DNA of 30,074 bases from the IMG/VR virus record IMGVR_UViG_3300044624_001015, positions 1 through 30,074 of that record; one strand, 5' to 3'. Both the position numbers and the translations under genes were made by a program. Below the pieces are notes generated by a model, which made no database searches, had not been told where the DNA came from, and saw nothing but the letters and a program-made list of their open reading frames with translations. Shown one piece after another: positions 1 to 20,849 of this stretch. The DNA is from a virus. Position 1 is the first letter of the stretch. Each line of letters begins with the position of its first letter.

Positions 1-906
1 GTCTTCCTCGTCGCGACGCTTGGTGTCGACGACGAAGCCATACTCGTTCGTGCCGCCGAGGTAACCGGCCCACGAGAAGGTATAGCCTGCGGCCGGGGTC
101 ATAATGCCCGGGCTCGGCGGACGGTAGGTCAGGAGGCACTTCTTGCCCAGAATGAACGAGTGAGCGGCGGTGTCGCCCTCGGCTGCGGTGTTCTGGATTG
201 CTTCGCCGACCATGACCTCGTCGACCTCGAAGATCTGCGCGAGCAGGTTCAGGGAGGCGATCGAGGGCTGGGAAGTGGTCGCGCCGCCATTGATGCGGCC
301 CTGCACGTCCGGGTGATCGATCAGCGCCGAGTAAACTTGACGGCCCATGACCATCACGTTCGGCTTAACGCCGGTCGAGCCGAGGATCGTGTCGATCCCG
401 GTGCGAACGTTGCCGATCGGGTCGCCCGAGGTGGTGTCAGACCACTTGATGACCTGCCCGGTCGACGGAGAAGAAGCGACGCCGGTGATGTCGGTGCCCC
501 AGAGACCGGTCGAGAAGAACGACGACGAGAAATCGGTCTCCTTCTGGATCAACATCTGGTGCGTCGCCAGCTCGGCGGCTGCGCGAGCAGGATCTGCGGC
601 CGGGTCTGCGTTGGCGCGGACCTGATCCGGGATCGGGATCGCGACGCCGTATTCTTCGCAGAAGTAGCTGTCGTTCGAGAGGGCATAGCCCACCTCGGAC
701 ACGCGAGCACCGGCGGCGCGCTTCTTAGCGCCGTTGCGGTTGAAGTAGGAGCGATCGAACGTGAAGTATTTGTCCGACTGCTTCTGAACCGGGATGTTCT
801 GGAAAACGCGCGAGGCGACGAAGCCTTGCGGGTTTTGCAGCAACGCGACCGAGATGTTCGTGAGGGCGGCGTCGATATGGAACGAGCCTACGTTGGGTTG
901 CGGCAT
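1..906 (-). CDS. Major capsid protein (C-terminus beyond the left edge)
   Basis: The frame is open from an ATG at 906 to the window edge, giving 302 residues that begin MPQPNVGSFHIDAALTNISV. The start has a strong Shine-Dalgarno (AGGAGGG, about 8 nt upstream). The content fits an HK97-fold major capsid protein of the group that follows a small decoration protein: an N-terminal arm with RVFQNIPVQKQSDKYF, a central helical part rich in Ala around residues 95-125, and a later segment with KPNVMVMGRQVYSAL typical of the A-domain strand. Its position directly after the protease, scaffold and decoration genes supports the call. The protein would form the icosahedral shell. The gene is cut by the window, so the C-terminus and exact family cannot be judged. 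Confidence 0.88.
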   Translation of the reverse strand, partial: MPQPNVGSFHIDAALTNISVALLQNPQGFVASRVFQNIPVQKQSDKYFTFDRSYFNRNGAKKRAAGARVSEVGYALSNDSYFCEEYGVAIPIPDQVRANADPAADPARAAAELATHQMLIQKETDFSSSFFSTGLWGTDITGVASSPSTGQVIKWSDTTSGDPIGNVRTGIDTILGSTGVKPNVMVMGRQVYSALIDHPDVQGRINGGATTSQPSIASLNLLAQIFEVDEVMVGEAIQNTAAEGDTAAHSFILGKKCLLTYRPPSPGIMTPAAGYTFSWAGYLGGTNEYGFVVDTKRRDEED

Positions 907-923
907 GACTTATCCCTCCTGCC

Positions 924-1292
924 TTATGCTGCTGCGCCGCGCGGCTGGAACAGGATCTCGATGATCCGTCCGGCTGCGCCGGTTTCGAGAGCCACGCCGA
1001 GGATGATGTCCCCGGATGCGGCGTTGACTGCGGTGCCGCTCGCGTCCGAGGCCACGGGACCGCCACGGGTGACGACGCCACCGCAAACGACCTTGACCTT
1101 GCCAGCGATCGCCACGAGCGCGGCGCGCCCGGCGGCGGCGGGAGCGTCTTGCAGGACGCCGTCCGCATCGAGCCCGTCACCGGTAGGGTCAATCTGACCA
1201 TCCGACGCGACGGATACGAAATAGAACTGCTTCGTCGAGAGGTCCGCACCGGCCTCCAGAGTGACGCAGAGCATGTTGTCTTGAGTTGCCAT
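924..1292 (-). CDS. Capsid decoration (cement) protein, DUF2190-like
   Basis: This encodes 122 aa. The ATG at 1292 is preceded by AAGGAGG with 7-8 nt spacing. The sequence is small, beta-rich and full of Gly, Ala and Val, with VCGGVVTRGGPVASDASGTA near residues 68-87 and a final GRIIEILFQP. This pattern is typical of DUF2190-type cement proteins, which sit on the outside of the capsid and stabilise it. The place between scaffold and major capsid protein is the usual one for this family (compare lambda gpD). It ends 17 nt before the capsid gene. I am fairly sure of the role. The family label is by eye and not searched. Confidence 0.75.
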   Translation of the reverse strand: MATQDNMLCVTLEAGADLSTKQFYFVSVASDGQIDPTGDGLDADGVLQDAPAAAGRAALVAIAGKVKVVCGGVVTRGGPVASDASGTAVNAASGDIILGVALETGAAGRIIEILFQPRGAAA

Positions 1293-1304
1293 CTGTGGGC
1301 CTCC

Positions 1305-1907
1305 TTACTGCACGTTGCGCTTGGCAAAGAGTTCCGCGCCGCGTCCGGTCTTGGTCACCTCGGCGAACGCCTTGGCGAACGTGACCTTCTTCTCGGCGGA
1401 GTAATCTTCGGCCATCTTGTTGAGCTCGGTCATGGCGTCGGTCTCTTGCGGAGCGACGGTGCCGAACTCGCGGGTCAGCTTCGAGGCGACGGAGTTCGCG
1501 CCTTTCAGCATGGCATGAGCGGCCTTGCGAACGTCCTCGTCCGCGATCGCGTCGATCGCCTTGAGGACCGCGCCCTTGGTCGCTGCGTCGCCTGCGAGGT
1601 GCGGGATCTCGGCGCTCACGCGCTTCGTCAGCTCCTCGGCGGCGAGGCGCTTGTTGACCTCGGCCAGCTCGTCGGCCTGCTTGGCGATCACCGAGAGAAC
1701 GCTCGCAGGGAGCACGCTCTTGAGGACCATCTCGCCGCCGACCTCGATGTAGTCTTCGGGCTTGCGCTTTTCGACGGTCACGGCGTCGTCGGCGATCTGC
1801 ACGACGAAGCCTTCGCCTTCCAGCGACTTCGCAAGCGCATCGACGGAAGCCGAGAGACGCTTGTTCGCGGCCTCGAGATCCTCGAGGCGCTTCTCTTGAT
1901 CGGACAT
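1305..1907 (-). CDS. Nested in-frame scaffold product (internal start)
   Basis: An ATG at 1907 lies in frame inside the 278-aa gene and would give a 200-aa protein starting MSDQEKRLEDLEAANKRLSA. It has a much better Shine-Dalgarno (AAAGGAGA, about 8 nt upstream) than the full-length start at 2141. The predicted product begins exactly where the helical, coiled-coil-like part starts and omits the protease-type LVDEPANP segment. Nested scaffold starts inside protease genes are known in lambda (C/Nu3). Whether this start is used here is inferred from the ribosome binding site and domain boundary alone. Confidence 0.55.
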   Translation of the reverse strand: MSDQEKRLEDLEAANKRLSASVDALAKSLEGEGFVVQIADDAVTVEKRKPEDYIEVGGEMVLKSVLPASVLSVIAKQADELAEVNKRLAAEELTKRVSAEIPHLAGDAATKGAVLKAIDAIADEDVRKAAHAMLKGANSVASKLTREFGTVAPQETDAMTELNKMAEDYSAEKKVTFAKAFAEVTKTGRGAELFAKRNVQ

Positions 1908-2141
1908 CGAGTTGTCTCCTTTGTCCAGATCGCCGGTCGGTCCGGCCCCCTTGTTGCGCCTCATACGCGCAACTTGCTCGCGGGCTTCGTCCTCGGACAT
2001 CCCCCCCTCGATCAATTCTTTGATTTTCATCTCGTCCGGCGCGCTGTCGCGCTTAAACATGACGACGCGCGCTGCGGGGTTGGCGGGCTCGTCGACGAGC
2101 GAGAGCTCGATCAGTTCGAGGTCCGTGACGTTAAACGGCAT
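1305..2141 (-). CDS. Scaffold-like protein with XkdF-type C-terminal motif at its N-terminus
   Basis: This encodes 278 aa from ATG 2141. The frame stays open upstream to 2210, but that part overlaps the protease gene. The first 32 residues (MPFNVTDLELIELSLVDEPA, then NPAARVVMFKRD) carry the LVDEPANP motif that in many XkdF-type proteases follows the catalytic FSIGG segment in the same chain. Here that segment lies in another frame. From residue 79 on the protein is charged and helical, with EKRLEDLEAANKRL and a later EVNKRLAAEELTKR stretch, as in scaffold proteins. The start overlaps the protease stop by 11 bp and has only a weak ribosome binding site (GGGGAAAAG), so it is either translationally coupled or reached by a +1 shift. 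A second start inside is listed separately. Confidence 0.72.
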   Translation of the reverse strand: MPFNVTDLELIELSLVDEPANPAARVVMFKRDSAPDEMKIKELIEGGMSEDEAREQVARMRRNKGAGPTGDLDKGDNSMSDQEKRLEDLEAANKRLSASVDALAKSLEGEGFVVQIADDAVTVEKRKPEDYIEVGGEMVLKSVLPASVLSVIAKQADELAEVNKRLAAEELTKRVSAEIPHLAGDAATKGAVLKAIDAIADEDVRKAAHAMLKGANSVASKLTREFGTVAPQETDAMTELNKMAEDYSAEKKVTFAKAFAEVTKTGRGAELFAKRNVQ

Positions 2142-3597
2142 TTCTTTTCCCCATGCCCCCGATGCTAAAGGCTGCGAGCTCTCCGCTCTTAACCCTATTC
2201 CATACATCATCGTCGTGCACTTTCATAGCCACGACCCATCCTTCGAGTGCAGAATGTATGCCGAGAGCCTCTCCGAGGGCCTTTGTGAGCGGGAAAGAGT
2301 GGATCACCTCCCCGATCTTGCCCCCTTCGTGCATCGCTTTTGCGGTGCGGACGTCGGCCATGAAATTGTCTGCGGCCTTCGTCATCACCTCGGGCGAGAT
2401 GATGTCGCCTTGCCGGTCGACCATTGGCTTGCCATCGATCGAGACGACCGAAGCCCAGCCCCAGACGATCCGCGCCTCGTCGTCCATCTTGAGGATCTTG
2501 GCTGCGTGCTTTTCGACCCGCGCCTCGAGGATCGCGCCGATCGCGGCCTCGATCACGGTCTCGATCAGATCCTCGGTCGGATCTTCGATCTCGGCCTGCT
2601 CCGGGTCGAGGCTCTCCGGCATGATAAGACCAGCCTCGCCGACCATCTCGAGATAAGCCTCGTGGGTCGCGCCCGGCATGTAGAACGCCTGTCCGTCCGG
2701 ACCTTCGGTCATATGCGCGACGAGCCCGAGCCCGAGCTGGTGCGCGCGCTGCACGGCCTCGATCGGCGTCGTGAAGACGTCGTCCGAGATCTGCCGCTTG
2801 CCGATGTTTTCCATCTTCGTCATCTCCGATACTGAGGTGCCACTTTCCCACATCTTGCAGGACCAATACCGCGCCGAGGTCTTGTCGGTCGCGCTGTCGC
2901 ATGAGTGCCGCGCGCGAAAATTGGCGCGGGCTTCGGGATCGTCCCGGCGGATCTCCATGTTCGGATCCCCGAACGTGACCCGGCGCACGCGCTCGCCGTC
3001 CTTGACGTAGACCCCGAACTTCTTGGTCGCGCCGCGCGGGAGCCGGAAGGGCTTGTCGAGCTCGACGTCTCGGCCCTCATATTCCGCCTTCTCGAGGCTC
3101 TTGGTCGACATGGGGTGCTTCTCCGGGAGAAGATCAGTGTCGTGCTTGCCCGACTTGAACTTGCCGTCGCGGATCGCGCGCAGGAAATTGTTGACCCGCG
3201 CCATCGCCCACTGCTCGGGCGAGGTCACGTTCGGCCGCACGCTCTGCGGGTTCGTGCGATACGCGCCGACGCCCCGATCGTAGACTTGGCGGAGCATCCC
3301 GACCGTGACGCGGCCCTTGTCCCCGTGCTCGGCGTTGTGCTCCTCGACCTTGGCGCGCAGCGTGTCCGCCGAGACCTTCTCGAGATCCTCGTCCGCCTTC
3401 TCGATGTAGACCCCGTCCTCGCCCTTCTTGTAGCCCGCGCTCTCGATCGCAGCGTAGGCCGCGCCGAACGCCCGGCCCTCCTGATAGCCGCTGTCCATGC
3501 TCTCGTTGAAGACGCGCCGCCAGATCGAGCGCGCCTTGTCCGAGGTCAGGACGCGCTTCACCGCGTCGGGAAGATCGTCATTTGTCGAGTATGGCAT
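2131..3597 (-). CDS. Multi-domain prohead protease: ChaB-like plus XkdF-type (S78_2) protease
   Basis: This encodes 488 aa with several regions in order. Residues 3-55 resemble ChaB (DDLPDAVKRVL at 7-17, then a helical stretch ending in SAGYKKGEDG). Residues 77-160 resemble a phage structural domain of the DUF5824 kind (VTVGMLRQVYDRGVGAYRT, WAMARVNNFLRAI). Residues 175-250 form a Cys/His-containing domain (FGDPNMEIRRDDPEARANF, ARHSC, ARYWSCKMW). Residues 368-488 match XkdF-type phage serine proteases, with candidate catalytic His423 (AMHEGGKIGEVIHSF) and Ser478 (AAFSIGG). The enzyme would mature the prohead by cleaving scaffold and capsid proteins. The ATG at 3597 has AAGGA 8 nt upstream. It ends right after FSIGGMGKRNAV, shorter than usual for the family: the normal LVDEPANP motif is in the next gene in the +1 frame. 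Confidence 0.8.
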   Translation of the reverse strand: MPYSTNDDLPDAVKRVLTSDKARSIWRRVFNESMDSGYQEGRAFGAAYAAIESAGYKKGEDGVYIEKADEDLEKVSADTLRAKVEEHNAEHGDKGRVTVGMLRQVYDRGVGAYRTNPQSVRPNVTSPEQWAMARVNNFLRAIRDGKFKSGKHDTDLLPEKHPMSTKSLEKAEYEGRDVELDKPFRLPRGATKKFGVYVKDGERVRRVTFGDPNMEIRRDDPEARANFRARHSCDSATDKTSARYWSCKMWESGTSVSEMTKMENIGKRQISDDVFTTPIEAVQRAHQLGLGLVAHMTEGPDGQAFYMPGATHEAYLEMVGEAGLIMPESLDPEQAEIEDPTEDLIETVIEAAIGAILEARVEKHAAKILKMDDEARIVWGWASVVSIDGKPMVDRQGDIISPEVMTKAADNFMADVRTAKAMHEGGKIGEVIHSFPLTKALGEALGIHSALEGWVVAMKVHDDDVWNRVKSGELAAFSIGGMGKRNAV

Positions 3598-3622
3598 GTC
3601 AGATCCTTCTCATGGTGGACGC

Positions 3623-3639
3623 GGGAGGACAGAAAAACG
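3623..3639. repeat. 17-nt inverted copy, partner at 11335-11351
   Basis: GGGAGGACAGAAAAACG here is the exact reverse complement of the 17 bases at 11335-11351. It directly abuts the larger duplicated element 3639-3774. On the minus strand it lies in the presumed leader of the protease gene. Its core (CTGTCCTCC on the other strand) also recurs in the arms of the larger element. The function is unknown. Confidence 0.7.
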
Positions 3640-3774
3640 AGGAGGGCTCAAAAACGGCCAGAACCTCCGAGGGGTGACCCTGCGATAGCAGGGCTCCCCT
3701 TGGGGTTCCACCCGGAGATCCGCAGGGAGGGGAGGAGAGGATAATACTATAGGGAAGTCTGTCCTCTTCTCCCA
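3639..3774. repeat. Duplicated structured intergenic element, copy 1
   Basis: About 135 bp that match 11151-11287 closely. Both copies sit in a gap between minus-strand operons. Parts in plus-strand order: a CGGCCAGAACC box; a hairpin with stem CCCTGC/GCAGGG at 3678-3683 and 3688-3693 and loop GATA; flanking GGGG (3671-3674) and CCCC (3696-3699); a second GGGG at 3702-3705; the box GGGGTTCCACCCGG; and a conserved TAATACTATAGGGAA core (3741-3755) between purine-rich and pyrimidine-rich arms (GGGAGGAGAGGA and TCCTCTTCTCCC). The hairpin pair T3681-A3690 is C-G in the other copy, which supports an RNA or DNA structure. The orientation of transcription and the function are unknown. It may serve as promoter, leader or terminator for the capsid operon. 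Confidence 0.8.
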
Positions 3775-3788
3775 GATTTAGAGCGCGG

Positions 3789-4607
3789 TCAGTCTGCATC
3801 TTCGAGCCACCCGTAGAAGCCGCCGGTGACCGTCGCGGCCTTGTCCGTCGTGGCGCGCAGAGCGACGATCTCTCCCGCTGGGATCGCGTAGAGCGCGCCG
3901 TCCGAGAGGATCACCGAGCTGTCTTGCAGCGCGATCGTCCCCTGAGTGATAAGTAGCCCGGCGTCGGCGAAGCTCTCGTTGTTGATGCGGGACACGACGA
4001 CATCGATCGTCACGCCCGCCGCCGATGTTCCCGAGTGCGCTCCGGCGTAGAGCGTATGGATTATCAGCCGCTTGCCTGCTGGGACGCGATAGGCGGAGCT
4101 GCGCGTCGTCCGGGATCCGGCGGAGATGAACTTGTATCGCGTGCCCCCGTTCGTCACGGTGAGATTACCGGCGAACGCCTTCCCGGACCCGTAGGTGTGC
4201 AGATGGATCTCCCCGACCCACCTAATATTCGTCGCGGTCGTGAGGACCGGCGTCGTGCCGTTGAGCGTGATCGTCTCGCTGTGCGGCATCAGATCCGCGT
4301 CGAGGTAGTTCAGGACGATCGAGCGGACGCCTGTCCCGTTGACCCCGTCCTGCGCGCTGGTCGAGACGATCGACATCTGCAAGCCCGCCGCCGGTGCGAC
4401 GGACGGATCCTTGATCGTCGAGCCCTCTAGGATCAGGACGTTGGTCGCCGAGCCCGAGGTCACCAGATAGCCGTCGATGACGACCGGATAAGCCCCATCG
4501 ACGCGCCCGCGCGTGATCTCGAGCTGCTGATCGAACAGGAGCCGCCAGATGCGCTGGTTCCAATCTCGCACCGGCTTGAGCGTCTTGGTGTAACCGACTG
4601 TCGTCAT
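3789..4607 (-). CDS. Virion structural-like protein of unknown function
   Basis: This encodes 272 aa from ATG 4607, which overlaps the stop of the gene before it (ATGA). The frame is open further upstream to 5123, but that part runs through two other genes and is low-complexity, so I reject it. A weak AAAAAGG ribosome binding site lies about 10 nt before the ATG. The protein is beta-rich and full of Thr, Ser, Gly and Val (for example GTTPVLTTATNIRWVGEIHL), without signal peptide or membrane segments. It ends with GGFYGWLEDAD. The look suits a virion structural protein such as a head fibre or decoration component, and it lies between Mu-F and protease genes. I do not recognise a named family. 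The long gap and repeat element begin just after its stop. Confidence 0.72.
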   Translation of the reverse strand: MTTVGYTKTLKPVRDWNQRIWRLLFDQQLEITRGRVDGAYPVVIDGYLVTSGSATNVLILEGSTIKDPSVAPAAGLQMSIVSTSAQDGVNGTGVRSIVLNYLDADLMPHSETITLNGTTPVLTTATNIRWVGEIHLHTYGSGKAFAGNLTVTNGGTRYKFISAGSRTTRSSAYRVPAGKRLIIHTLYAGAHSGTSAAGVTIDVVVSRINNESFADAGLLITQGTIALQDSSVILSDGALYAIPAGEIVALRATTDKAATVTGGFYGWLEDAD

Positions 4608-4822
4608 AGAAATCGACCTTTTTCTGGATCTGGCCCCGATATGCCGTCGATGAAGTCCGCGTCGACGAGCGCGCTTCCGCGCAGAATAGCACGATCCATC
4701 AGCGCCGGGAGCGCGTAATAGTCCGCATCGCCCATCGATCGCATGTCTGGCATCTCTCCCGGAAACATTGCCACGTAGCGCGTGATCGCCGCGCGCAGCC
4801 GCAGGGTGAAGTCGTCCATCAT
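4604..4822 (-). CDS. Small head-module protein, unknown
   Basis: This encodes 72 aa (MMDDFTLRLRAAITRYVAMF at the start). The tandem ATG at 4822/4819 has AGGAGG with 7 nt spacing to the first ATG and overlaps the stop of the Mu-F gene. Its own stop overlaps the next start (ATGA). A longer frame reaching to 5041 exists but only repeats antisense-like, Arg-rich sequence, so I take the short form. It has an acidic middle (PGEMPDMRSMGDADYYALPA) and a predicted helical N-terminus. Size and place suit a small head or completion protein, but nothing identifies the function. Confidence 0.66.
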   Translation of the reverse strand: MMDDFTLRLRAAITRYVAMFPGEMPDMRSMGDADYYALPALMDRAILRGSALVDADFIDGISGPDPEKGRFL

Positions 4823-6960
4823 AGCAGCGCCTCCTCGACCAGCTCCTCGAAGACCTTCGAGGTGCGCGGGAAGAACCGCACAAAGACCGCGTATTGCGTC
4901 GCGTTGCCGCTGGTCCACGCCTCGAACCAGTTTGCAAAGAGCTGCGCCGATGTCCCGACCCCATACTCGCGCTTGCCGAGGGTATGGGTGAACGTGCCCG
5001 GGAGCCCTGCGGTATCTGCGACCTTGGACCAAGCGCGCCAATCGGTGTAATACTTTGTCTTGTGGCCGAAATTGTAGGCAATCTGATTAAGCGTCGAGGC
5101 TCCGATGCTGTCTGAGAGCCCACTGAGCGCAGCTCCCCGGCGTAATGACGCCAGCTCCTGCATCAGGGTGTAGTGGTCCTTGAGATCGTAGGAGACGAGG
5201 AACTTGACCGCCTCCTCGACGATCCGAAGCGTGTCGAAGTCCTTCTGCGGCTGGATCCCGGGCAGAAACGCGATCCCCGGCGCGAGCTTCTTCGCGTCGG
5301 CCAGCGTCAGCCCGCGCTTCTCGAACTCGGCCTCGAGCTTGGCATAGGCTGCGGGCGCGTCCTCGATGTCGTTGAGCCCGAGCTTGTTCAAGAGCTTCTC
5401 GCGTTCCGCAAGAACGGCGTTCTTCGCAGCCGGGGAGCCCTTCGTCGGCGTCGCTTTGAACAGGGGGTTCACGGTGGCCTCAATTAAGGAAGCGTCGAGA
5501 TCCTTCGCGTCGTCTGCGATCGCCGGGAGGGCGCGCCTCGAAGCCACATCACCAAAGGCGAGCATCTTACTCTCCGGAACTCCGGCCTTTGCCAGAAGGT
5601 GCCGGTCGATCACGTGGTCAATATGGTGCCCGTATTCGTGCCGCATCGTCGTTTGATAGTCTTGCGACGCGGTGTCGCGGTTCGACATCTCGATTTGTCG
5701 CATGGAAGCCTGATAGCACGCCCCCGTCTTGACAAAGGCGACGCCCCCGCGAAGGTTCCCGAGCTTCTCGATGATCGCCATGCGGTCCGGATCTGTTTGC
5801 ATGAACGTAGGCGCGACATTGAGGCGCTCGTCGATCGTCTTGTTGGCCCAGACCCTCCGCCGCCGCTCCTCGTCGGTCATCGCCGGTTGAGGGCGAGCAG
5901 CGACCGGAGGGGGCGGCGGAGGCGGCGCGACCTGTCCCGGGGAGGTAGACGGGAGCAGGCCGCGATCGATGATGCGCGCGAAGACCGCGCACCGGCATTG
6001 GATCGTGTTCGCAGCGAGCGCGTTCGGGTCGCCGGGATAGAGGATCGGCCCGAGCGGGCTCGCGAAGGTCTCGTTCTGCCCGACGCCGCGCGGGTTCATG
6101 CTCGGGATCTGCAAGTGCGCGTTGCGGACGTGCGCGTCGCCGGTATGGATCCACGTCCGGCGGACCTGTCGAGCGTCGATCTGGCCTTTGTTTATCATGT
6201 CCTGAAAGAGCTCCCACTGGGCCCCTTGCACGGCGCGGATGCTCTCGGTCCGGGCGATGACGTTCGCCCTGTATTTGACGTATCGGTCACGATACCGATC
6301 GACCAGCGACCGGATCTGCGCCTCGGTCAGCGCCTTGTCGTTGCGGATCGCGCGCTCGACGGTGCCGTCGCTTCGCCGGTCGCGCAGCTTGCGATCGAGC
6401 GCCTCGGGATCGAGGGCGCGCAGCATCCGCTCGTAGTTCGAGACCGCCGTCTCTTGCCTGCGCGTGAGCCCGATCGATCCCCGGATCTGCCGAGCGATCG
6501 CGAACGGATCGTCTCCGGCCGTGAGCCCGCGCTGCAAGACCTGTCGGATCGTGTCCCGCGTCGTCTGGTCGATCTCCCGGATCCGGGTCGAGGTGAGCGT
6601 GATTGCGAACTGCTCGAGGCGCGGGTTGAGCCCGACGGCGATCTGGAAGTCCTCTTGTGCGCCGTTTACGACGCCTTGCGTGTCGCTCGTCGCCTTCACG
6701 CCTGCGAGGACGGCCTGCTCGATCGCCGCGCCGTAGGGTTGCCATTCGCTCGAGCTGAAATGCCCGGAGAAAGCGTTCTCGAGCGAGACGAAGTCGCGCC
6801 GCTCGATCATGCGCGCGATCTGCTCGGCCGGGACGCGGGTCCGGATCTGCTCGATCGCCCGGATGAACGCGCTCGCGATCTTCGGGTCCATGCCCTCCGC
6901 AGCCCGCAAGAAGACGGCCACCGCATCCGAGGCGGTCATCTTGCGGAGCACGGCGTTCAT
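4819..6960 (-). CDS. Mu-F/SPP1 gp7-type head protein fused to a zinc metallopeptidase-like domain
   Basis: This encodes 713 aa. Residues 1-330 look like a phage minor head protein of the Mu F/SPP1 gp7 family: a helical N-terminus, then the diagnostic block RRTWIHTGDAHVRNAHLQ at 267-284 and NTIQCRCAVFA at 318-328. A proline-rich linker (APPPPPPPVAARPQP) covers 345-359. The C-terminal half has HEYGHHIDH at 441-449, an HExxHxxxH zinc-site pattern, and a late FANWFEAW at 675-682 whose Glu680 could be a further ligand. Such C-terminal enzyme domains on Mu-F proteins are known in other forms, for example ADP-ribosyltransferase-like toxins. A few copies of this protein sit in the head and may enter the cell with DNA. 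The start ATG overlaps the previous stop (ATGA). The domain assignment is by motif only. Confidence 0.82.
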   Translation of the reverse strand: MNAVLRKMTASDAVAVFLRAAEGMDPKIASAFIRAIEQIRTRVPAEQIARMIERRDFVSLENAFSGHFSSSEWQPYGAAIEQAVLAGVKATSDTQGVVNGAQEDFQIAVGLNPRLEQFAITLTSTRIREIDQTTRDTIRQVLQRGLTAGDDPFAIARQIRGSIGLTRRQETAVSNYERMLRALDPEALDRKLRDRRSDGTVERAIRNDKALTEAQIRSLVDRYRDRYVKYRANVIARTESIRAVQGAQWELFQDMINKGQIDARQVRRTWIHTGDAHVRNAHLQIPSMNPRGVGQNETFASPLGPILYPGDPNALAANTIQCRCAVFARIIDRGLLPSTSPGQVAPPPPPPPVAARPQPAMTDEERRRRVWANKTIDERLNVAPTFMQTDPDRMAIIEKLGNLRGGVAFVKTGACYQASMRQIEMSNRDTASQDYQTTMRHEYGHHIDHVIDRHLLAKAGVPESKMLAFGDVASRRALPAIADDAKDLDASLIEATVNPLFKATPTKGSPAAKNAVLAEREKLLNKLGLNDIEDAPAAYAKLEAEFEKRGLTLADAKKLAPGIAFLPGIQPQKDFDTLRIVEEAVKFLVSYDLKDHYTLMQELASLRRGAALSGLSDSIGASTLNQIAYNFGHKTKYYTDWRAWSKVADTAGLPGTFTHTLGKREYGVGTSAQLFANWFEAWTSGNATQYAVFVRFFPRTSKVFEELVEEALL

Positions 6961-7340
6961 GCGGCGATCTCGAGCGAGAGGAACGACGGCGCGCCGGGGA
7001 GCTTGTTCTGGAACTCCTTGTAGACCTGCTTGAGCGAGGCGTCGCCCGGGAACAGATCAAAGAACTGCCGCACGCCGTCGAGCGTGACCCGGACATAGTC
7101 GTCTCTGACGCGCTGGATCGACCGCACGGCCGAGGCGCGGATCCACCGCTGCGCGCTCATCTCGACGAAGTCGCGCGCGAAGGCGTCGCTCTCGATGAAC
7201 TCGACGCCGTTCAGGACCGGGAACTGCAAGCCCGGCGCGTGCACGATCATCGTCTCTCCCGACATCGAGGTCTCGATCGCTTGGACGTTGAAGTCCGCGA
7301 CCTCGATCCAGATCCCATTGGGATAGACTTGAAACCTCAT
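6957..7340 (-). CDS. Hypothetical protein between portal and Mu-F genes
   Basis: This encodes 127 aa, starting MRFQVYPNGIWIEVADFNVQ. It is coupled on both sides by ATGA overlaps (7340 with the portal stop and 6960 with the Mu-F start). There are no membrane segments or signal peptide. The sequence mixes beta-like N-terminal strands with a C-terminal helical part (DASLKQVYKEFQNKL). The tight coupling between portal and Mu-F suggests a part in the head or portal vertex, or in regulating one of them. I do not recognise the family. Confidence 0.7.
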   Translation of the reverse strand: MRFQVYPNGIWIEVADFNVQAIETSMSGETMIVHAPGLQFPVLNGVEFIESDAFARDFVEMSAQRWIRASAVRSIQRVRDDYVRVTLDGVRQFFDLFPGDASLKQVYKEFQNKLPGAPSFLSLEIAA

Positions 7341-8698
7341 TCTGCGACCCCCTCGTCGATCGGTTGAACCTGCGCGCCCAGAAGATCCGGGTCGACGCTC
7401 TTTTCTGGGAACCCGGCGGCGCGCCGGAGCGTGTTCTCGGTGTCGTCGTCCGGGAAGATCGGCATCCCAGCGCCTGCGATGTCGCGAACGAACGCGCCCA
7501 GCTCGGCCAGATCCACCGGCGCGATCTCCCCGAAGGCGATCATAGGCATGAGCTCCGGGTCGAAGCCGTTGATCTCCCAGAGCCGAGGCATGAGCTGCCG
7601 GTTCAGGACCGACGCGATCGCCTCGGTGAAGCCCCCGGCTGCGGTCAAGAACAGGTCGGTCTTGCTGCGCGAGAGCGCGAACGAGCCCTTATCGCCACTG
7701 CCGAGCATCAGGAAGTCGGCCAGCACCGAGCGCGCGATGTTCTGCTGGTGCCGCAGGATCACCTCGCCCGTCGGGATCGCGCGCGTCCCCTTGGCGGTCA
7801 CGAGATCGAACTCGACCATTGGGATCGAGGTCTTGGTGCCGTCGTCGTTCTCGTAGACGTCCGAGGGGATCAGGATGAAGCCCTGATCGTTGAACTTGAC
7901 GTCGCGCAGGATCTTCTTGAAGGCGTTCGTGAAGCCCTGCTGCGCCGCGCTCGCGCTCTCCCCGAGGTATTCCGAGGGGATCTTGCCGACCGGGATCCCG
8001 TTCATCTCGCGCTCGACCGCGATCGCCTCGACCATCTGGATATGCGAGGCGTAGTGGTAGGAGGTGAAGGCGTTGCGGAGGATCGATCGGCCGCTCGGGT
8101 CGTTGTTCACGGTCGAGGTGCGGAAGTGCAGCATCTTCGAGGCCGGGATGTCGACCGATCCGAGCTTGAGCGAGAGCGCGCTCTGCCGCACGCCGGTGAT
8201 CGTCCCGTTCTCGTCGGTCAGGAACCGGTCGATCGTCCACTGGGCACGCGGCGCGAGCTTGCGGATCCCGTAGCGGCCATCGTCGAACTGGGAATAGCGC
8301 GCCGGGTCGTCGCTGTTGCGCCCGGATCTGGTCTTGTAGACCACCTCGAAGACCGAGAAGCCGAACGGGAGGAACGTCAGAACCTCGGCGAGGAAGTCGT
8401 CGACCGTGCCTTCCATGTCCGCGAAGCATTGCTCGACGAAGACCTTCGCCTCCTCGGCCTCCGGGCTGTCGTTGGCTGCGTCGATCCGGAACTCCGCCGC
8501 GCGCAGGAGCATCTCGAAGGCCATGAGGATTGCGCCGATGATCGGGTCGTTGTCCTTCATCTCCCGGAAGGTCCGCGTCGCGTTGAGCCCGCGCAGCTTC
8601 GGGAGGAACTCGTCCGGCCGGAGCTGATCGTCCCGCCCGTAATTGCCCGCCGCGCCGAGCTCGCGGGTCGCCGTCGCCTTCGTTGGTGCTTTTGCCAT
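7337..8698 (-). CDS. Portal protein (Mu gp29/DUF935-like)
   Basis: This encodes 453 aa, within the usual range for portal proteins. The portal is a dodecameric ring at one capsid vertex through which DNA is pumped in and out, and to which the tail binds. Evidence: the N-terminal LNATRTFREMKDNDPIIGAI segment, then AFEMLLRAAEFRI and FLPFGFSVFEVVYK, which are typical of DUF935/gp29-like portals; a central IDRFLTDENGTITGVRQ; and a polar C-terminus. It lies directly after the large terminase with a TGATG overlap at 8696-8700 and ahead of the Mu-F gene, the classic terminase-portal-MuF order. I am confident of the role and less so of the subfamily. Confidence 0.9.
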   Translation of the reverse strand: MAKAPTKATATRELGAAGNYGRDDQLRPDEFLPKLRGLNATRTFREMKDNDPIIGAILMAFEMLLRAAEFRIDAANDSPEAEEAKVFVEQCFADMEGTVDDFLAEVLTFLPFGFSVFEVVYKTRSGRNSDDPARYSQFDDGRYGIRKLAPRAQWTIDRFLTDENGTITGVRQSALSLKLGSVDIPASKMLHFRTSTVNNDPSGRSILRNAFTSYHYASHIQMVEAIAVEREMNGIPVGKIPSEYLGESASAAQQGFTNAFKKILRDVKFNDQGFILIPSDVYENDDGTKTSIPMVEFDLVTAKGTRAIPTGEVILRHQQNIARSVLADFLMLGSGDKGSFALSRSKTDLFLTAAGGFTEAIASVLNRQLMPRLWEINGFDPELMPMIAFGEIAPVDLAELGAFVRDIAGAGMPIFPDDDTENTLRRAAGFPEKSVDPDLLGAQVQPIDEGVAE

Positions 8699-10164
8699 CA
8701 GACCGGCCTCGCTTTATTGCCCACATGATCCCCGATCACAAAAAGACCGGTCTTTCTCTGCCGCTTCGGAGCGACGGCGTTGAAGCCCGAGCTCGCAGCG
8801 TCTGCTTGATCCTTATACACGCCTCTCGGGAAATGTCGAAGCTCCTCGATGAAATCTCTATTCCAAGGACCGGTCACGATGTCGACGTTCCCGGCCTCGA
8901 TCTGCGCCGCGAGCGGCTCGGCCCGGGTCTCCTTGGATCCGCTCTGCGGCTCGATCCGCACGCGATAGCCTGCAAGCCGGACGGTGAAGTCGCGCGCCTG
9001 TGCCTTGCCCGCCTGTCCCGGATCCTGCGGGAGCGAGATCGGGACGTCGTCGCCGTCGAACTCGGCCGCATCTGCGACCATCTTCCGCACGCCGTCCGGC
9101 CCGAGCCGGGCGCGCTTCACGTCGGCGATGATGACCCGGCGCGCCTCGACGCGCCATCCGACCAGCACGCCCGCCGTGTAAGCTCCCGCGCCGTCCGTTG
9201 CGGCCAAGTCCCACGCCCTGCACCAGACGATCTCCTCGTCCGGCACGGCGTCGATCGTCTGGATCTTGTCGACCTTGAACAGCCCGCCCTCGCGCGGCGT
9301 CGGCCGCTGCTCGAGCTGGGCCGAGGAGGCGTAGGGTCCGAGCGTCTGGACCAGATCCGCCACCGCCTGCGCGGAGAAGCGTTGCGGCCACATCAGCTCG
9401 CCCTCCTGCGTGCGAGGATCCGACCAACCGATCGAGGTCGTGCGCGCTCTCGAGCTGTCGTAGTGCATGGGGATCAGGAGGTGGTCGTAGCCCTGCTCGA
9501 TCGCCGCCGCTGCGACGTCCTCGTGATGCACGCGCTGCATGATGCAAACGAACGCGCTGCGATCGAGGTCGTTCACGCGGCTCGGGACGACCTCGCGGAA
9601 CCATTGCAACGTCTCGCTTCGGATCGCCTCGCTCTCGGCCTCGAGCACGTTGTGCGGGTCATCGATCACGAAGACGTCACCGCGTTCGCCGGTGGCCCGG
9701 CCTCGGACCGAGGTCGCCATCATCGAGCCCGTCTCGGTGTTCGCGAAATTGACCTTCTGGGCTTGGTCGTCCGAGAGCCGGACGCGCGGAAAGAGCCGCT
9801 GGTAGAGCGGGCTCTCGACGATCATCTTGGCGCGCCGGTTATCCCGCGCTGCGAGCGCCTCGGCGTAGGACGCGCCGATATACCGAAGCGACGGGTTCGA
9901 GATCCAGCTCCACGTCGGCCAGAAGGCGCGCGTGAGGAGCGACTTCATGGATCCCGGCGGGACCGTTATCAGGAGCTTGCGGATCTCGCCCCGCGTGACG
10001 GCCTCGAGGTGCTCTGCGATCGCCTCGATCGGCCAGCCGGTGACGAGCGATCGACCGGGCTCGAGCACCGGCCAGAAGGTCCGGGCGAAGTAGAGCACCG
10101 ATCGGCGGCATAGCTCGGCCTCAATTAAGTCTCGATCGGCCGTCGTGATCTTCGGGAGCTGCAT
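8698..10164 (-). CDS. terL: Terminase large subunit
   Basis: This encodes 488 aa. The N-terminal ATPase has Walker A VPPGSMKS at 68-75 and Walker B VFVIDDP at 164-170, followed by HN and a QRVHHEDVAAA segment (motif III region). The C-terminal RNase H-like nuclease begins with CRAWDLAATDG around 315-325 (Asp319 a likely metal ligand). The protein cuts concatemeric DNA and drives it into the prohead through the portal. The start at 10164 lies inside the small-subunit gene (44-bp overlap) with a modest AAAGG ribosome binding site, so coupling is likely. Length and motif order are normal for the family. Confidence 0.94.
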   Translation of the reverse strand: MQLPKITTADRDLIEAELCRRSVLYFARTFWPVLEPGRSLVTGWPIEAIAEHLEAVTRGEIRKLLITVPPGSMKSLLTRAFWPTWSWISNPSLRYIGASYAEALAARDNRRAKMIVESPLYQRLFPRVRLSDDQAQKVNFANTETGSMMATSVRGRATGERGDVFVIDDPHNVLEAESEAIRSETLQWFREVVPSRVNDLDRSAFVCIMQRVHHEDVAAAAIEQGYDHLLIPMHYDSSRARTTSIGWSDPRTQEGELMWPQRFSAQAVADLVQTLGPYASSAQLEQRPTPREGGLFKVDKIQTIDAVPDEEIVWCRAWDLAATDGAGAYTAGVLVGWRVEARRVIIADVKRARLGPDGVRKMVADAAEFDGDDVPISLPQDPGQAGKAQARDFTVRLAGYRVRIEPQSGSKETRAEPLAAQIEAGNVDIVTGPWNRDFIEELRHFPRGVYKDQADAASSGFNAVAPKRQRKTGLFVIGDHVGNKARPV

Positions 10165-10633
10165 CTGAGATCGCCTTTGACAGTTCGAGGAGGGCTTCGG
10201 TCGAGACCTTCGAGAGGTCGACGCTCTGGATCGGTCCGCCGTGCGCGCCGGTGACCTCGAGCTTCTGCGTCTCGGACCAACGCATCTGCGTCTTGGTCCA
10301 CCAGATCATCGCCGCGACGTCGCCCTTCATCGCCTTGGTGTAGAGCGCGCTCGCGATGTCCCAGCCCGTCTGAGCCTTGCCCTCGTCGAGCTCGAAGCGG
10401 AAGTGCTCGAGGAGCGTCTCGAGCGCGATCCCGCGCCGCACAAGCATCCGGATCTGGTTCTGCGGGAGCCCGAGGCCTGAGAGCTTCTTGACCAGCTCGC
10501 GCTCCTCATCCGTCGGGACGAACGGCGGACGTCCCGCTCCCGGCATCGCGCCGCCTGATAAACCAGAGCCGGGCTTCGGCCCGCGTGGGCCGCGAGCCTT
10601 TTCTGCCGTCGGCTTTTCTGTTTCCTTGGTCAT
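10121..10633 (-). CDS. terS: Terminase small subunit-like protein
   Basis: This encodes 170 aa from ATG 10633, with GGGAG about 9 nt upstream. An in-frame extension to 10753 would run into the resolvase gene and is rejected. After a basic, Pro/Gly-rich tail (residues 1-40, with RPPFVPTDEERELVKKL) comes a helix-turn-helix-like stretch with SGLGLPQNQIRMLVRRGIAL, then FELDEGKAQTGWDIASALYT. That order is common in small terminase subunits that recognise phage DNA. It lies directly before and overlaps the large subunit. The family call rests on pattern and location. Confidence 0.75.
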   Translation of the reverse strand: MTKETEKPTAEKARGPRGPKPGSGLSGGAMPGAGRPPFVPTDEERELVKKLSGLGLPQNQIRMLVRRGIALETLLEHFRFELDEGKAQTGWDIASALYTKAMKGDVAAMIWWTKTQMRWSETQKLEVTGAHGGPIQSVDLSKVSTEALLELSKAISDAAPEDHDGRSRLN

Positions 10634-10650
10634 CTCGCGTCTCCCGTGGG

Positions 10651-11124
10651 TCACCGGTATCCGGCCGCATGATACGCTAAAAGCGCAGCCTCCGCCACGC
10701 CGTCGTCGGAGATCGCGCGGAACGTGAAGGCGTCCCCGAAGCGGAGGCGGCATAGGTCGAGGCTGTCGCGCTTCTCGGTCCCGAGCCCGAGGTCTTTCTT
10801 CCAGACCGACGGCGTCGTCCAGACGACCGTCTCGGCCATGAGCTGCGCTAGGGTCTCGATCGCGCCGGTGGCCCGGCCGAAGGTGAACGACGAGGTCACG
10901 CCCTGTCCCGGACGCGCTGCGACCTGCTCGATCACCGCCTGATCGATCCGGCCGAGGTCGGTCAACCAGACGAGCAGCTCTCGCGCGTCGACCAGCCCCT
11001 TTCCCTTGTGCCGGATCACCGGCGTTCGGAGACCGGCGACGAACGCGGGAGGCGCGCCCTCCTTGGTCTCGATCAGGGCGAACCCTCCCCCGAGCCCGGG
11101 GTCAATTCCTAGATACCGCGCCAT
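10651..11124 (-). CDS. RuvC-like Holliday junction resolvase/endonuclease
   Basis: This encodes 157 aa with an RNase H-like fold signature. YLGIDPGLGGGFALI (residues 4-18) carries the first catalytic Asp8, AVIEQVAARPGQG has Glu66, and the C-terminal ISDDGVAEAALLAYH carries Asp140/Asp141. This matches phage RuvC-type nucleases that cut branched DNA. It precedes the terminase genes by 17 nt, so it may trim recombination or replication junctions before packaging. The leader, up to the helicase stop at 11369, holds the second copy of the duplicated element. No strong Shine-Dalgarno is visible (weak AAAGG about 10 nt before the ATG). Confidence 0.86.
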   Translation of the reverse strand: MARYLGIDPGLGGGFALIETKEGAPPAFVAGLRTPVIRHKGKGLVDARELLVWLTDLGRIDQAVIEQVAARPGQGVTSSFTFGRATGAIETLAQLMAETVVWTTPSVWKKDLGLGTEKRDSLDLCRLRFGDAFTFRAISDDGVAEAALLAYHAAGYR

Positions 11125-11150
11125 CTGTTTGAGCCTTTCGTTGGAGTGCA

Positions 11151-11287
11151 GAGGAGGCCGAAAATCGGCCAGAACCCGGTAGGGGTAACCCCCGCGCTAG
11201 CGGGGTTTCCCCTCGGGGTTCCACCCGGCCACGGACAGGGAGGGGAGGAGAGGATAATACTATAGGGAAACCTGTCCTCTCCTCCCA
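11151..11287. repeat. Duplicated structured intergenic element, copy 2
   Basis: This is the counterpart of 3639-3774. The hairpin stem is CCCCGC (11180-11185) with GCGGGG (11190-11195) and loop GCTA. Flanking blocks are GGGG at 11172-11175, CCCC at 11199-11202 and GGGG at 11205-11208. The TAATACTATAGGGAA core lies between arms GGGAGGAGAGGA and TCCTCTCCTCCC, which here are perfectly complementary (12 bp). A further perfect small hairpin GGCCGA-AAA-TCGGCC (11157-11171) is only in this copy. It lies in the leader between the PrimPol-helicase stop and the resolvase start. The shared features suggest a regulatory role for the packaging operon. Confidence 0.8.
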
Positions 11288-11334
11288 TATTTTTAGGGTT
11301 TTTCGGCGCGCTGTTTTGGCGCGTTGGGAGGGGA

Positions 11335-11351
11335 CGTTTTTCTGTCCTCCC
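11335..11351. repeat. 17-nt inverted copy, partner at 3623-3639
   Basis: CGTTTTTCTGTCCTCCC is the reverse complement of 3623-3639. A second CTGTCCTCCC follows at 11353-11362, so the motif is present in tandem just after the stop of the helicase gene. The rest of this gap (11288-11334) holds an AT-rich stretch with TTTTTAGGG and a GCGCGCTGTTTTGGCGCG run, without a recognised signal. Confidence 0.65.
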
Positions 11352-11368
11352 TCTGTCCTCCCGAGCCA

Positions 11369-13552
11369 TCATTCGGCGCGCTCCTCGATCATATTTTCGA
11401 CCAGCGCGAGCCCGCCCTTGGTGACCTCGTAAGCCTTGCCGTGGTTCTTGCCCGGACCCGGATCTTTGAAGTCGATCACCTCGAGCGCGCCCATCCCGAC
11501 GAGCTGGGAGAGGACCGCCGTCACGCGACCGCGCGCCGCGCTCTCCTCCTTCGTCAGATCCGCCTTCGCCTTCTCATAGCCCAGATCCAGCCCGAGCGCC
11601 TTGGCGACCGGATAGTCCGCCCTCGACGCGCCCTTCGTGCGGCGCTCCTGCGGAGGCAAGGTCTGCAAGACCTGCACCGCGAGCACCATGTCCCCGAACC
11701 GCTCGCCCTGCGACGCCGCCGTCGGCTTCCACGGGACCGAGACCGCGACGACGTCCTCGTCGTTCTCCTCGTCCCCGTTCCCGAACGGGACCAGCTCGAC
11801 CTTGACGAAATCCCCGCCGAAGGTGCGCGGCCCCATGTTCGCCTTCGGGCGCGTGAGCTCGCCATAGAGCGGCCGCTCGTCCTCGGGGATCCCGAGATCC
11901 TCGGCGTCCTTCGCGGTCATCTCGTTGAGCACCATCGAGACGCGCGCCGAGTTGACGATCGCGCCTGCGCCGCGCGTCGCTGTCGCCGCGCTCTTTTTGC
12001 CGGCATCGACCGACGCCTTCGAGGCGTGATGCAAGAGCAGGATCGCCGCCTTGGTCTCGCGTGCGACCGATCGCATCATGCCCATGAGCTTCGCCATCTG
12101 GACGTTGTCGTTCTCCTCGAGCTCGTGAAGCTCGGCGATCGGGTCCAGCATCACCACGTCGAGCCTGTTCGAGACGATGATCTGCTTGAGCGCGGGGAGG
12201 TCGACCGCGATCACCTCGCGCAGCTCCTGCGAGAAGCGCGCGATCGTGATCTTGAGCTCGTCGATCGAGACGACGATCAGACGGTCCTCGATGTCGGCGC
12301 GCGTGAGCCCGTGGACCTGCATCGCAGCGTCGACGCGCTTCGCGAGCTCCTCCGGCGGATCCTCCGACCAGATCAGCACGCGGCGCGGTTTCCCGACGCG
12401 CTCGCCCATCACCGGCTTGCCGGAGGCCAGCGAGAGCGCCCAGCCGATCGCGAGCGAGGTCTTCCCGCCGCCACCGGATCCGGCGAGCACGGTCACGAAC
12501 TGCCGGATCAGAATGTTCCCGAGCAGCCACCGGCGCGGCTCATACTGATCGAGCGGACGCGGGACGTGCCCATGCACCGGATCCTCGACCGGTCCGGGAT
12601 CCTCGACCGGGATCTCCGGATCGTCCTCGACCCCGAGGAGCTGCGCCAAAGCGTCGAGAGCTGCGCGCTCGTCTCTGGGCTTGAAGCGTCGCAGAGCGCC
12701 ATCGAGAGCGCGCTCCGCGTCCTTGCGCGCCTTCTGCCACCGGCCGAGCTGCGCTCCGCTTGCCGGGCGCGCCTCGTCGTAGAGCGCCATGAGCCGCGCG
12801 AGCGCCTCGTCCTGTTCCATCCCGGCCAGCGCCCACCGCTTCGTGATCTCGAGCGTCGTGTAGTGAAAGTCCGCCCCGGTCCGGATCCGCTTCTCGAGCT
12901 CCTCGAGATCGACGCCGGACAGATCCGCGCCTGCGTCGGCCGCGCCGCTCGCCCGGTAGGCTGTCTGCATCCGCAGGAGATCCGCAAGCAGCGCGCGCGA
13001 CATCTGCGGAGGATCGACGTCGTGCTCGACGCTATAGCCCAGCGAGGGAGGCCAGACGACGAACCCGCTCGCGCCCCGGATGTCGATCGCGTCCGCCGAT
13101 TTGCGCGACGAGACGACCGCGTCCGAGGCCGCGAAGATGTAATGTTTTCCGCCGCTTGTCGTGCGGTGGATCCGCGCCTCGGCCAGCTCGGCCGCGTGCC
13201 GGGCGAAGAACGCCTCGGCGACCGGATCCTCTTTCTTGGCGCGGTCGTCATCGATCACGACGAGATCTGCCGCGCCGGTGGCGACGCCGATCGCGCTCGC
13301 CCTGTCGCCTGCGGCCTTCATCATCGCCTCGATCGTCGCCCGGTCCTGCGTCGCCGCGTAGAACCCGGCCTTGAAGTCGTCCCCGGATCCGGATCCCCAG
13401 CCGTGCGCCGCGCAGATGTCACGGTTTAGCGCGGGGATCTTGTGCTTCGTTCCTTCTGGATCGGTATAGACATTGACCCAGAAGATCGGGTATTTAGTGG
13501 ATGCGGCGATCGCGTCCTCTAGGAGTTGTGTCTGGTCAGTTCTTTGGCCCAT
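11369..13552 (-). CDS. PrimPol-RepA-type helicase fusion (replicative primase-helicase)
   Basis: This encodes 727 aa from ATG 13552. An extension to 13627 is possible, but the first conserved part begins later. Residues 20-180 resemble an archaeo-eukaryotic primase/prim-pol domain: LVVIDDD at 97-103 supplies the acidic metal site and TSGGKHYIF at 132-140 the conserved His. Residues 340-550 are a RecA-like ATPase of the RepA/AAA_25 type, with Walker A GSGGGGKT at 358-365, VVMLDP at 466-471 and LLLHHASK at 505-512. The C-terminal 120 residues look winged-helix-like (VTAVLSQLVGMGALEVIDF). It would make primers and unwind DNA at the phage fork. The gene points away from the early operon and shares the control region 13553-13754 with it. 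Confidence 0.87.
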   Translation of the reverse strand: MGQRTDQTQLLEDAIAASTKYPIFWVNVYTDPEGTKHKIPALNRDICAAHGWGSGSGDDFKAGFYAATQDRATIEAMMKAAGDRASAIGVATGAADLVVIDDDRAKKEDPVAEAFFARHAAELAEARIHRTTSGGKHYIFAASDAVVSSRKSADAIDIRGASGFVVWPPSLGYSVEHDVDPPQMSRALLADLLRMQTAYRASGAADAGADLSGVDLEELEKRIRTGADFHYTTLEITKRWALAGMEQDEALARLMALYDEARPASGAQLGRWQKARKDAERALDGALRRFKPRDERAALDALAQLLGVEDDPEIPVEDPGPVEDPVHGHVPRPLDQYEPRRWLLGNILIRQFVTVLAGSGGGGKTSLAIGWALSLASGKPVMGERVGKPRRVLIWSEDPPEELAKRVDAAMQVHGLTRADIEDRLIVVSIDELKITIARFSQELREVIAVDLPALKQIIVSNRLDVVMLDPIAELHELEENDNVQMAKLMGMMRSVARETKAAILLLHHASKASVDAGKKSAATATRGAGAIVNSARVSMVLNEMTAKDAEDLGIPEDERPLYGELTRPKANMGPRTFGGDFVKVELVPFGNGDEENDEDVVAVSVPWKPTAASQGERFGDMVLAVQVLQTLPPQERRTKGASRADYPVAKALGLDLGYEKAKADLTKEESAARGRVTAVLSQLVGMGALEVIDFKDPGPGKNHGKAYEVTKGGLALVENMIEERAE

Positions 13553-13650
13553 GCTCTTGCCCTTATTGGTGTGTCCTTGGCAGGTCCGCACCATAAACCC
13601 GGGACCGCGATCGCCGCAAGCCTTCATGGGTTATCTGCCTGTCATCACCT

Positions 13651-13680
13651 TCACCCGCTCCGGCGGGTGATCTTTTTTCT
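13651..13680 (+). terminator. Rho-independent terminator on the plus strand
   Basis: The perfect 8-bp stem TCACCCGC/GCGGGTGA with loop TCCG is followed at once by TCTTTTTTCT. This is a textbook intrinsic terminator for rightward transcripts. No rightward gene lies upstream. It would stop antisense transcripts coming through the helicase gene, or end a short RNA made in 13553-13650, just before promoter P1. Confidence 0.8.
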
Positions 13681-13681
13681 C

Positions 13682-13713
13682 GGACCGGTCTTGAACTCCT
13701 CGAGGACCGGTCC
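13682..13713. promoter_or_regulatory. Paired palindromic operator candidates at P1
   Basis: GGACCGGTC (13682-13690) lies directly before the -35 box and the palindrome GGACCGGTCC (13704-13713) lies inside the spacer, about two helical turns apart. The same pair occurs at 20850-20881. A related GGACCGGACC is found at 14200-14209. A repressor or activator dimer could bind these sites. The regulator is not identified in the window. Confidence 0.6.
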
Positions 13714-13719
13714 TATATC
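13691..13719 (+). promoter_or_regulatory. Early promoter P1 (sigma70-like)
   Basis: The -35 box TTGAAC, a 17-bp spacer and the -10 box TATATC point rightward to the gene at 13755. The same -35 box and the complete 17-bp spacer are repeated at 20859-20887. The leader is about 30 nt and ends in the GGAGACCTGCC ribosome binding region. Confidence 0.75.
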
Positions 13720-13743
13720 TTGCGGAGACGACAACGCAACCTC

Positions 13744-13754
13744 GGAGACCTGCC
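13744..13754 (+). promoter_or_regulatory. Ribosome binding site with shared GACCTGCC spacer (1)
   Basis: GGAGACCTGCC directly precedes the ATG at 13755. The spacer GACCTGCC is also present before the starts at 14247, 17251 and 20924 and, with two extra C, at 19037. Ribosome spacers are normally not conserved, so this may be a shared control site. Confidence 0.7.
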
Positions 13755-14153
13755 ATGCAAACCCGTTTCAAGTTCAGCGCCACCTTCTCGACCGGCGAGA
13801 CCATCACCCGCAACACCGACAATCTCTATTCCTTCGCTTGGGCGGTGATCCGCATCGCCGACGGGAAGATTGAGAAGTTCGGGTTCAGCGCCGACCCCGT
13901 CAACGCCGCCAAGGGCGCGAGCGCGAAGCTCTGGAAAAGCGTCTCCGCGAGCGACCGCAAAAACCCGGCAATGCGCCGTTATTGGGCCGGGCTCGCCAAG
14001 CAGCGCGGGTTCGCGTCGGTCGACGCCCTGATCGCCCACTGGGACGCGGAGGCGATCGCCCACAACGCAGCCCGCCGGGTCGAGATCGTCGAGATCGTCA
14101 ACGTGCCCCGGATCCGGATCTCGAGCTGGGGTCACGGCGGTCAGACCGTCTGA
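13755..14153 (+). CDS. First early-operon protein, unknown
   Basis: This encodes 132 aa, starting MQTRFKFSATFSTGETITRN. It has an N-terminal beta-hairpin-like segment followed by helices and a basic region. It lacks signal peptide and membrane segments. It lies directly downstream of promoter P1, so it is probably among the first proteins made after infection. The first strand (FSTGETITRNTDNLYSFAWA) weakly recalls the 103-aa protein at 20924, which is behind the twin promoter P2 and also has a DNTYSVA segment. Both may belong to one family of small early proteins. No function is recognised. Confidence 0.78.
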   Translation: MQTRFKFSATFSTGETITRNTDNLYSFAWAVIRIADGKIEKFGFSADPVNAAKGASAKLWKSVSASDRKNPAMRRYWAGLAKQRGFASVDALIAHWDAEAIAHNAARRVEIVEIVNVPRIRISSWGHGGQTV

Positions 14154-14158
14154 TCTGC

Positions 14159-14178
14159 GCGGGGGGTTGACCGCCCCC
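14159..14178 (+). terminator. GC-rich hairpin after the first early gene (weak terminator)
   Basis: A run of G (14160-14166) can pair with the run of C after TTGACCG (14174-14179), forming a six-pair stem with a 7-nt loop. No T tract follows, so at most it is a weak or factor-dependent stop. It overlaps the -35 box of the next promoter candidate. Confidence 0.35.
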
Positions 14179-14196: not shown

Positions 14197-14219
14197 TTAG
14201 GACCGGACCGCAAGCGGCC

Positions 14220-20839: not shown

Positions 20840-20849
20840 ATTATTTTGC

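Follow-up and report, generated by a model that had tools for sequence, protein, structure and literature searches.

Phage T7 carries the cassettes R3.8, R6.5, and R13, in which a promoter stands together with the hairpin of an RNase III site and which are repeated ahead of several gene blocks. Phage middle and late promoters of the T4 MotA or gp55 type consist of a -10 element only and depend on an activator. The put RNAs of phage HK022 suppress pausing and termination through RNA polymerase. The two forms, putL and putR, are related structured RNAs of ~70 nt, each lying in a phage leader behind a promoter (PMC9378689).

Layout of the duplicated element

We analyzed a stretch of 30,074 nt from the virus record IMGVR_UViG_3300044624_001015 (“the window”), which is a 30-kb fragment of a phage genome. 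The window is incomplete; its relatives G001, G002, G006, and G007 have ~127-bp terminal repeats and, with lengths of 37-38 kb, appear to be complete circular genomes. Two elements of about 135 bp had been predicted in gaps ahead of minus-strand late operons, and both were found at the predicted places, with lengths of ~140 bp. Comparison of the window with itself aligned 11151-11292 to 3639-3779 with 81.8% identity over 143 columns (E = 3e-31), and the 22-mer GAGAGGATAATACTATAGGGAA occurred at two sites, one in each element (0/100 shuffles). On the minus strand, copy 1 (3639-3774) precedes the genes for the head protease, the major head protein, and the tail, the last being read in the complete-looking relative G001. 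Copy 2 (11151-11287, also minus strand) precedes the RuvC-like resolvase, TerS, TerL, and portal genes. The location ahead of late gene blocks thus holds for both, with one refinement: copy 2 is flanked by same-strand genes, a primase-helicase and then the resolvase, so that its late block starts within a longer minus-strand gene run.

The hairpin that drew attention to the element is only half of it. On the minus strand the element is bipartite, with an inverted repeat around a TATAGT centre (module A; 3730-3773 in copy 1 and 11243-11286 in copy 2) and a nested hairpin 25-40 nt downstream (module B). The order is inverted repeat GGGAGGAGAGGA..TCCTCTCCTCCC around TTTCCCTATAGTATTA, short pyrimidine-rich stretch, nested hairpin, ribosome-binding site, and first late gene. 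The features, all on the minus strand, are as follows.

11353-11361, minus: GGAGGACAG box upstream of copy 2; a second box lies at 11342-11350
11275-11286, minus: copy 2 inverted repeat, left arm (coding strand GGGAGGAGAGGA), matching the right arm perfectly
11259-11264, minus: copy 2 -10-like hexamer TATAGT
11243-11254, minus: copy 2 inverted repeat, right arm TCCTCTCCTCCC
11162-11229, minus: copy 2 nested hairpin, with stems CGG/CCG, GAACCC/GGGTTC, AGGGG/CCCCT, AA/TT, and CCCCGC/GCGGGG and tetraloop TAGC; 91 bits with covariance model R1, which was trained on this copy among others; stems invariant in 13 copy-2 sequences
10651-11124, minus: RuvC-like Holliday junction resolvase, first gene behind copy 2, followed by TerS, TerL, portal, and head morphogenesis
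3762-3773, minus: copy 1 inverted repeat, left arm (coding strand GGGAGAAGAGGA), with one mismatch against the right arm
3746-3751, minus: copy 1 -10-like hexamer TATAGT inside the conserved core TTCCCTATAGTATTATCC, without a -35-like hexamer 16-18 nt upstream
3730-3741, minus: copy 1 inverted repeat, right arm (coding strand TCCTCTCCTCCC), where the presumed leader begins
3651-3716, minus: copy 1 nested hairpin, with stems CGG/CCG, GAACC/GGTTC, AGGGG/CCCCT, and CCCTGC/GCAGGG and tetraloop TATC; 62 bits with R1 (E = 4.8e-14); covariation present
3623-3632, minus: downstream box of copy 1, CTGTCCTCCC (with GGGAGGACAG as its reverse complement), lying ~25 nt ahead of the protease start codon and largely retained among copy-1 orthologues
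2131-3597, minus: first gene behind copy 1, for a head maturation protease (XkdF-like Peptidase_S78_2), followed by the major head protein and tail genes

Read out on the minus strand, the copy-2 hairpin is CGG-GAACCC-AGGGG-AA-CCCCGC-TAGC-GCGGGG-TT-CCCCT-GGGTTC-CCG.

The T7 cassettes resemble this layout in having a promoter-like site beside an irregular hairpin, repeated before gene blocks, with about two helical turns of duplex. The duplex expected of an RNase III site is present here, as the hairpin of ~22 bp has 22 pairs, small internal loops, and a bulge, and lies 25-40 nt from the -10-like core of a putative promoter. The T7 cassettes go with a phage RNA polymerase, whereas none was seen among the genes of the window, and RNase III cleavage is here only a proposal. 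The search for a polymerase gene covered the PHROG and Pfam matches of the main ORFs of the window, which lacks ~8 kb of the genome. A promoter of a T7-like RNA polymerase (plus strand TAATACTATAGGGAA) was also considered and rejected, since a plus-strand reading points away from the late blocks. With the T4 MotA or gp55 type, the element shares a -10-like hexamer, the lack of a -35, and regulator-type repeats, but the boxes are others, no activator or sigma factor was found, and the -10 forms the centre of the inverted repeat. The likeness to put lies in two related copies ahead of two gene blocks, here behind a candidate promoter. The put RNAs have two stem-loops and belong to early operons, whereas all copies here have a single nested stem-loop and precede late blocks.

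Distribution among related phages

As the original prediction had proposed, further copies were sought in related phages. Viral contigs were scanned for an exact 18-mer and for the hairpin pattern, which yielded dozens of copies; the related phages supply 27 distinct hairpins. The covariance model R1 was trained on 13 copy-2 sequences, with no copy-1 sequence included, and it recovered those of copy 1 as well, with scores of about 60-80 bits and E-values of about 1e-13 to 1e-19. R1 also scores the reverse complement of each hairpin weakly, which was not counted as a separate copy.

The window, G001-G005, G009, G010, and G013 have exactly two copies each, in keeping with the idea that a common control of capsid and packaging genes is plausible. 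One copy was found in G006, G007, G008, G011, and G012, several of these records being fragments. G006 and G007 look complete and carry one canonical copy each, so the pair is not indispensable. The genome of G007 (36.9 kb) is a mosaic relative to the window, with head, late, and lysis genes 87-95% identical, whereas its early region differs and the element on the RuvC side is missing.

Loci with a RuvC of about ≤ 48% identity or a protease of about ≤ 69% gave no credible R1 match (best E = 0.53), which confines the element to one clade. A pattern scan of genome contigs returned three matches, none fitting the model, and among cultured phages the element had no BLAST match. The view that the element belongs to no known RNA class also stood: no Rfam 15 family matched at its gathering score (best sub-threshold scores 13-21 bits against gathering scores of 35-100), and permissive thresholds gave nothing credible. 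The element is thus known from one uncultured phage clade, whose host is probably an alphaproteobacterium.

Conservation of the hairpin structure

Both hairpins fold better than all of 200 shuffled sequences on either strand, with z-scores of -5.1 (copy 1) and -5.7 (copy 2) on the plus strand and -3.7 and -4.4 on the minus strand. The compensatory change that had been noted between the copies is real: the inner stem has T-A in copy 1 (CCCTGC/GCAGGG, 3678-3683 / 3688-3693) and C-G in copy 2 (CCCCGC/GCGGGG, 11190-11195 / 11200-11205), and the loop keeps four bases in both. It represents one old event only, as all copy-1 orthologues have T-A and all copy-2 orthologues C-G. The independent support therefore comes from two further double changes within the copy-1 orthologues and from the hairpin replacement described below.

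These changes were assessed in a model-based alignment of 27 distinct rows from related IMG/VR phages, which is fitted to the model and so leans toward structure; it was preferred over a MAFFT alignment that misplaced one-base gaps between the copies. Among the 27 hairpins, 98.4% of pair cells were standard and three pairs had changed on both sides: the U-A/C-G pair of the inner stem (14 vs 13 rows, split exactly by copy), an A-U/G-C pair beside the bulge (five rows), and a G-C/C-G pair of the outer stem (L078). When copy-1 orthologues were taken alone, two of the three remained. The covariation score was 0.081 against 0.037 ± 0.006 for shuffled alignments, and 0/500 shuffles reached the score or the paired percentage, although shuffles ignore descent and the independent events are few. 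Control partners slid by 1-3 columns were paired in at most 61% of cells, the best being a one-column slide. The copy-2 hairpins have a pairwise identity of 0.85-0.96, whereas the RuvC gene that follows them reaches about 0.65, and in the canonical family the loop UA and an A.A mismatch are nearly invariant. Taking the matched changes together with the replacement described below, it seems to be the fold itself that selection preserves. One-sided changes favor neither strand; several of them are C.A when read on the minus strand and G.U when read on the plus strand.

Natural replacement of the hairpin

In L022 (genome G006), an unrelated sequence, GATCGC..CTTTAACTGGG..CCCAATTAAAG..GCGATC, has taken the place of the interior of the copy-2 hairpin, and it too forms a long hairpin (fold z-score -5.0). 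L022 keeps the core CCCTATAGTATTCC and the flanks CCGG..CCGATTTT, and its flanks are close to those of L023. This swap is the strongest single item in favor of structure; it is independent of the model-based alignment and comes from one genome. Together with the covariation among the 27 distinct orthologues and paralogues, the hairpin-for-hairpin replacement supports the selected structure that had been proposed from two copies.

The swap also bears on the question of whether the nascent leader hairpin binds RNA polymerase and allows read-through of terminators in the late blocks, as in processive antitermination by put. The layout is alike, as put consists of two related RNAs of ~70 nt, each behind a phage promoter (PMC9378689), and the promoters here are putative; the late block behind copy 1 extends over about 20 kb, and the near-invariance of the mismatch and loop bases would also fit. 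Put needs particular bases and two stem-loops, whereas L022 exchanges the whole hairpin sequence and yet keeps a hairpin; the lack of a sequence or Rfam match further argues against kinship. The wholesale replacement favors a stem-based role over sequence-specific polymerase binding, and we regard put-like antitermination as quite unlikely.

L022 and L023 have an inserted gene of ~200 aa between copy 2 and RuvC, which by eye looks like an HNH/AP2-type homing endonuclease, and the arms of the inverted repeat are decayed where it is inserted. L202 was considered as a second carrier of the L022 hairpin and dismissed, the shared piece being due to chance. In the more distant relatives L031 and L035, other large hairpins of unrelated sequence occupy this place ahead of RuvC, e.g., GACCTCGGTCGA..TCGACCGAGGTC in L031.

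Promoter-like core and inverted repeat

The core of module A keeps C-Y-TATA in every variant seen, even where the arms have decayed (L023; L024, CCCTATACTATATCC), and the -10-like hexamer of relatives is TATACT or TATATA. Arms of 11-18 bp surround the core in most copies, in alternative registers. A scan of positions 1-15000 for sigma-70 promoters with a -10 and a -35 at 16-18 nt spacing found none, and at the elements TATAGT is present alone. The early promoters of the window, TTGAAC-N17-TATATC or TATCTC accompanied by GACCGGTC palindromes, serve as examples of ordinary promoters in this phage. They belong to a second duplicated element (13673-13720 and 20841-20888, plus strand), which carries two GACCGGTC-type palindromes, likely a repressor operator, ahead of plus-strand replication genes. 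In G014 the early promoters are arranged in the same way, but the palindrome is a different one (TGCTGATCAGCA).

Directly upstream of the core, GTTCTCTCTTTGTTC (GTTC-N7-GTTC) is found in L016-L020, L074, L086, L087, and L195; L087 has it at both copies, while its hairpins stay copy-specific. GTTC-N7-GTTC is the LexA box motif of Alphaproteobacteria (PMC8565304). Such boxes are absent from the window's own copies. Judged by this motif, SOS control of late genes through the host repressor LexA is possible in several relatives, and the boxes also hint at an alphaproteobacterial host.

The inverted repeat spans the presumed transcription start. Its left arm lies upstream of that start, so the repeat has to work either as DNA or within read-through RNA. 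The whole element might accordingly work as DNA, with an operator array (the inverted repeat around TATAGT and the flanking GGAGGACAG boxes) and a second inverted repeat to which a phage protein would bind in transcription, replication, or recombination. In L197, both sides of a perfect 15-bp repeat depart together from the usual sequence (GGAGTAGAGGACAGA/TCTGTCCTCTACTCC), and perfect GGAGGACAG 9-mers occur in the window only beside the elements; the hairpin's lack of strand preference points the same way. The bulges and the strictly 4-nt loop, on the other hand, resemble a folded single strand, the core-to-hairpin spacing varies by ~12 nt, and a protein-binding DNA site should not tolerate an unrelated replacement as in L022. 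Given that both strands fold equally and that the repeat around the core lies partly outside the promoter's own transcript, a DNA-level element retains an appreciable, though minor, share of the probability.

Coding potential and termination

The gap could also hold a small protein gene or leader peptide running from the stop of the upstream gene to the downstream start. Copy 1 is open in one frame at 19/20 loci, with an ATG at the end of the upstream gene and a stop in or near the protease ribosome-binding site, and nearly all indels are multiples of three. Along this frame, the changes at the three codon positions amount to 0.156/0.123/0.148, 0.134/0.116/0.182, 0.126/0.112/0.081, and 0.29/0.32/0.25, without the excess at the third position that is evident in the protease control (0.097/0.075/0.291). 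L009 is frameshifted, and copy 2 has no common frame: its frames differ between phages and stop inside the hairpin in L003, L011, and L024. A conserved protein gene was rejected on these grounds, and a coding role is very improbable. In the window (3599-3799, minus strand) and its orthologues, the frame is thus open from stop to start without conservation at the protein level; this may reflect selection for ribosome passage between the flanking genes in read-through mRNA, or translational coupling.

A strong hairpin between gene blocks could also be a terminator or attenuator separating transcription units. The coding strand has no U tract after the hairpins and a terminator scan found nothing there. 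An intrinsic terminator was consequently discarded, and we give separation of transcription units hardly any weight.

Proposed role of the element

Our preferred explanation, with a probability of roughly 0.4, is a duplicated bipartite late-gene control cassette, in which a late promoter/operator would be joined to a leader hairpin serving as a 5' stem or processing site. Two modules that are duplicated, held in conserved places, and conserved in structure, with one natural hairpin replacement, are the observations from which we infer promoter activity, a regulator, action at the RNA level, and processing. Module A would be a late promoter of the phage, read on the minus strand, in which TATAGT lacks a -35 and lies inside the inverted repeat; a phage regulator would bind the arms. 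Module B would be transcribed 25-40 nt past the presumed start, and each late mRNA would thereby carry a ~22-bp hairpin near its beginning, at the 5' end. There it may act mainly through its stem, as a 5'-end stabilizer or an RNase III-type processing site, which might also trim read-through mRNA coming from upstream genes. By such processing or trimming, both late blocks would get one defined leader.

The cassette agrees with a hairpin more conserved than the RuvC gene behind copy 2, with the places ahead of the RuvC and protease genes, with a TATA core that outlasts decayed arms, with a variable spacing between core and hairpin, and with GTTC-N7-GTTC beside the core in several relatives, which fits a regulatory region. 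The missing -35 and activator speak against it, as do the single canonical copies of G006 and G007, the about equal folding of both strands, one-sided changes that favor neither strand, and the near-invariance of the loop UA and the A.A mismatch, which exceeds what a mere stem needs. The original prediction is partly supported, namely in structure, location, and the lack of a known family, and an action in RNA can at present only be inferred. It is conceivable, if doubtful, that the element forms a new late-leader RNA class of Alphaproteobacteria phages, with two per genome acting in cis on RNA polymerase or late mRNA fate and a fold that can be swapped for an unrelated hairpin with its function kept.

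To our knowledge, late-gene control in phages of uncultured Alphaproteobacteria has been little studied. The element described here is a compact module that is used twice, with support from covariation and a natural hairpin swap, and predictions follow from it on the start sites of late mRNAs and on the shaping of their 5' ends.
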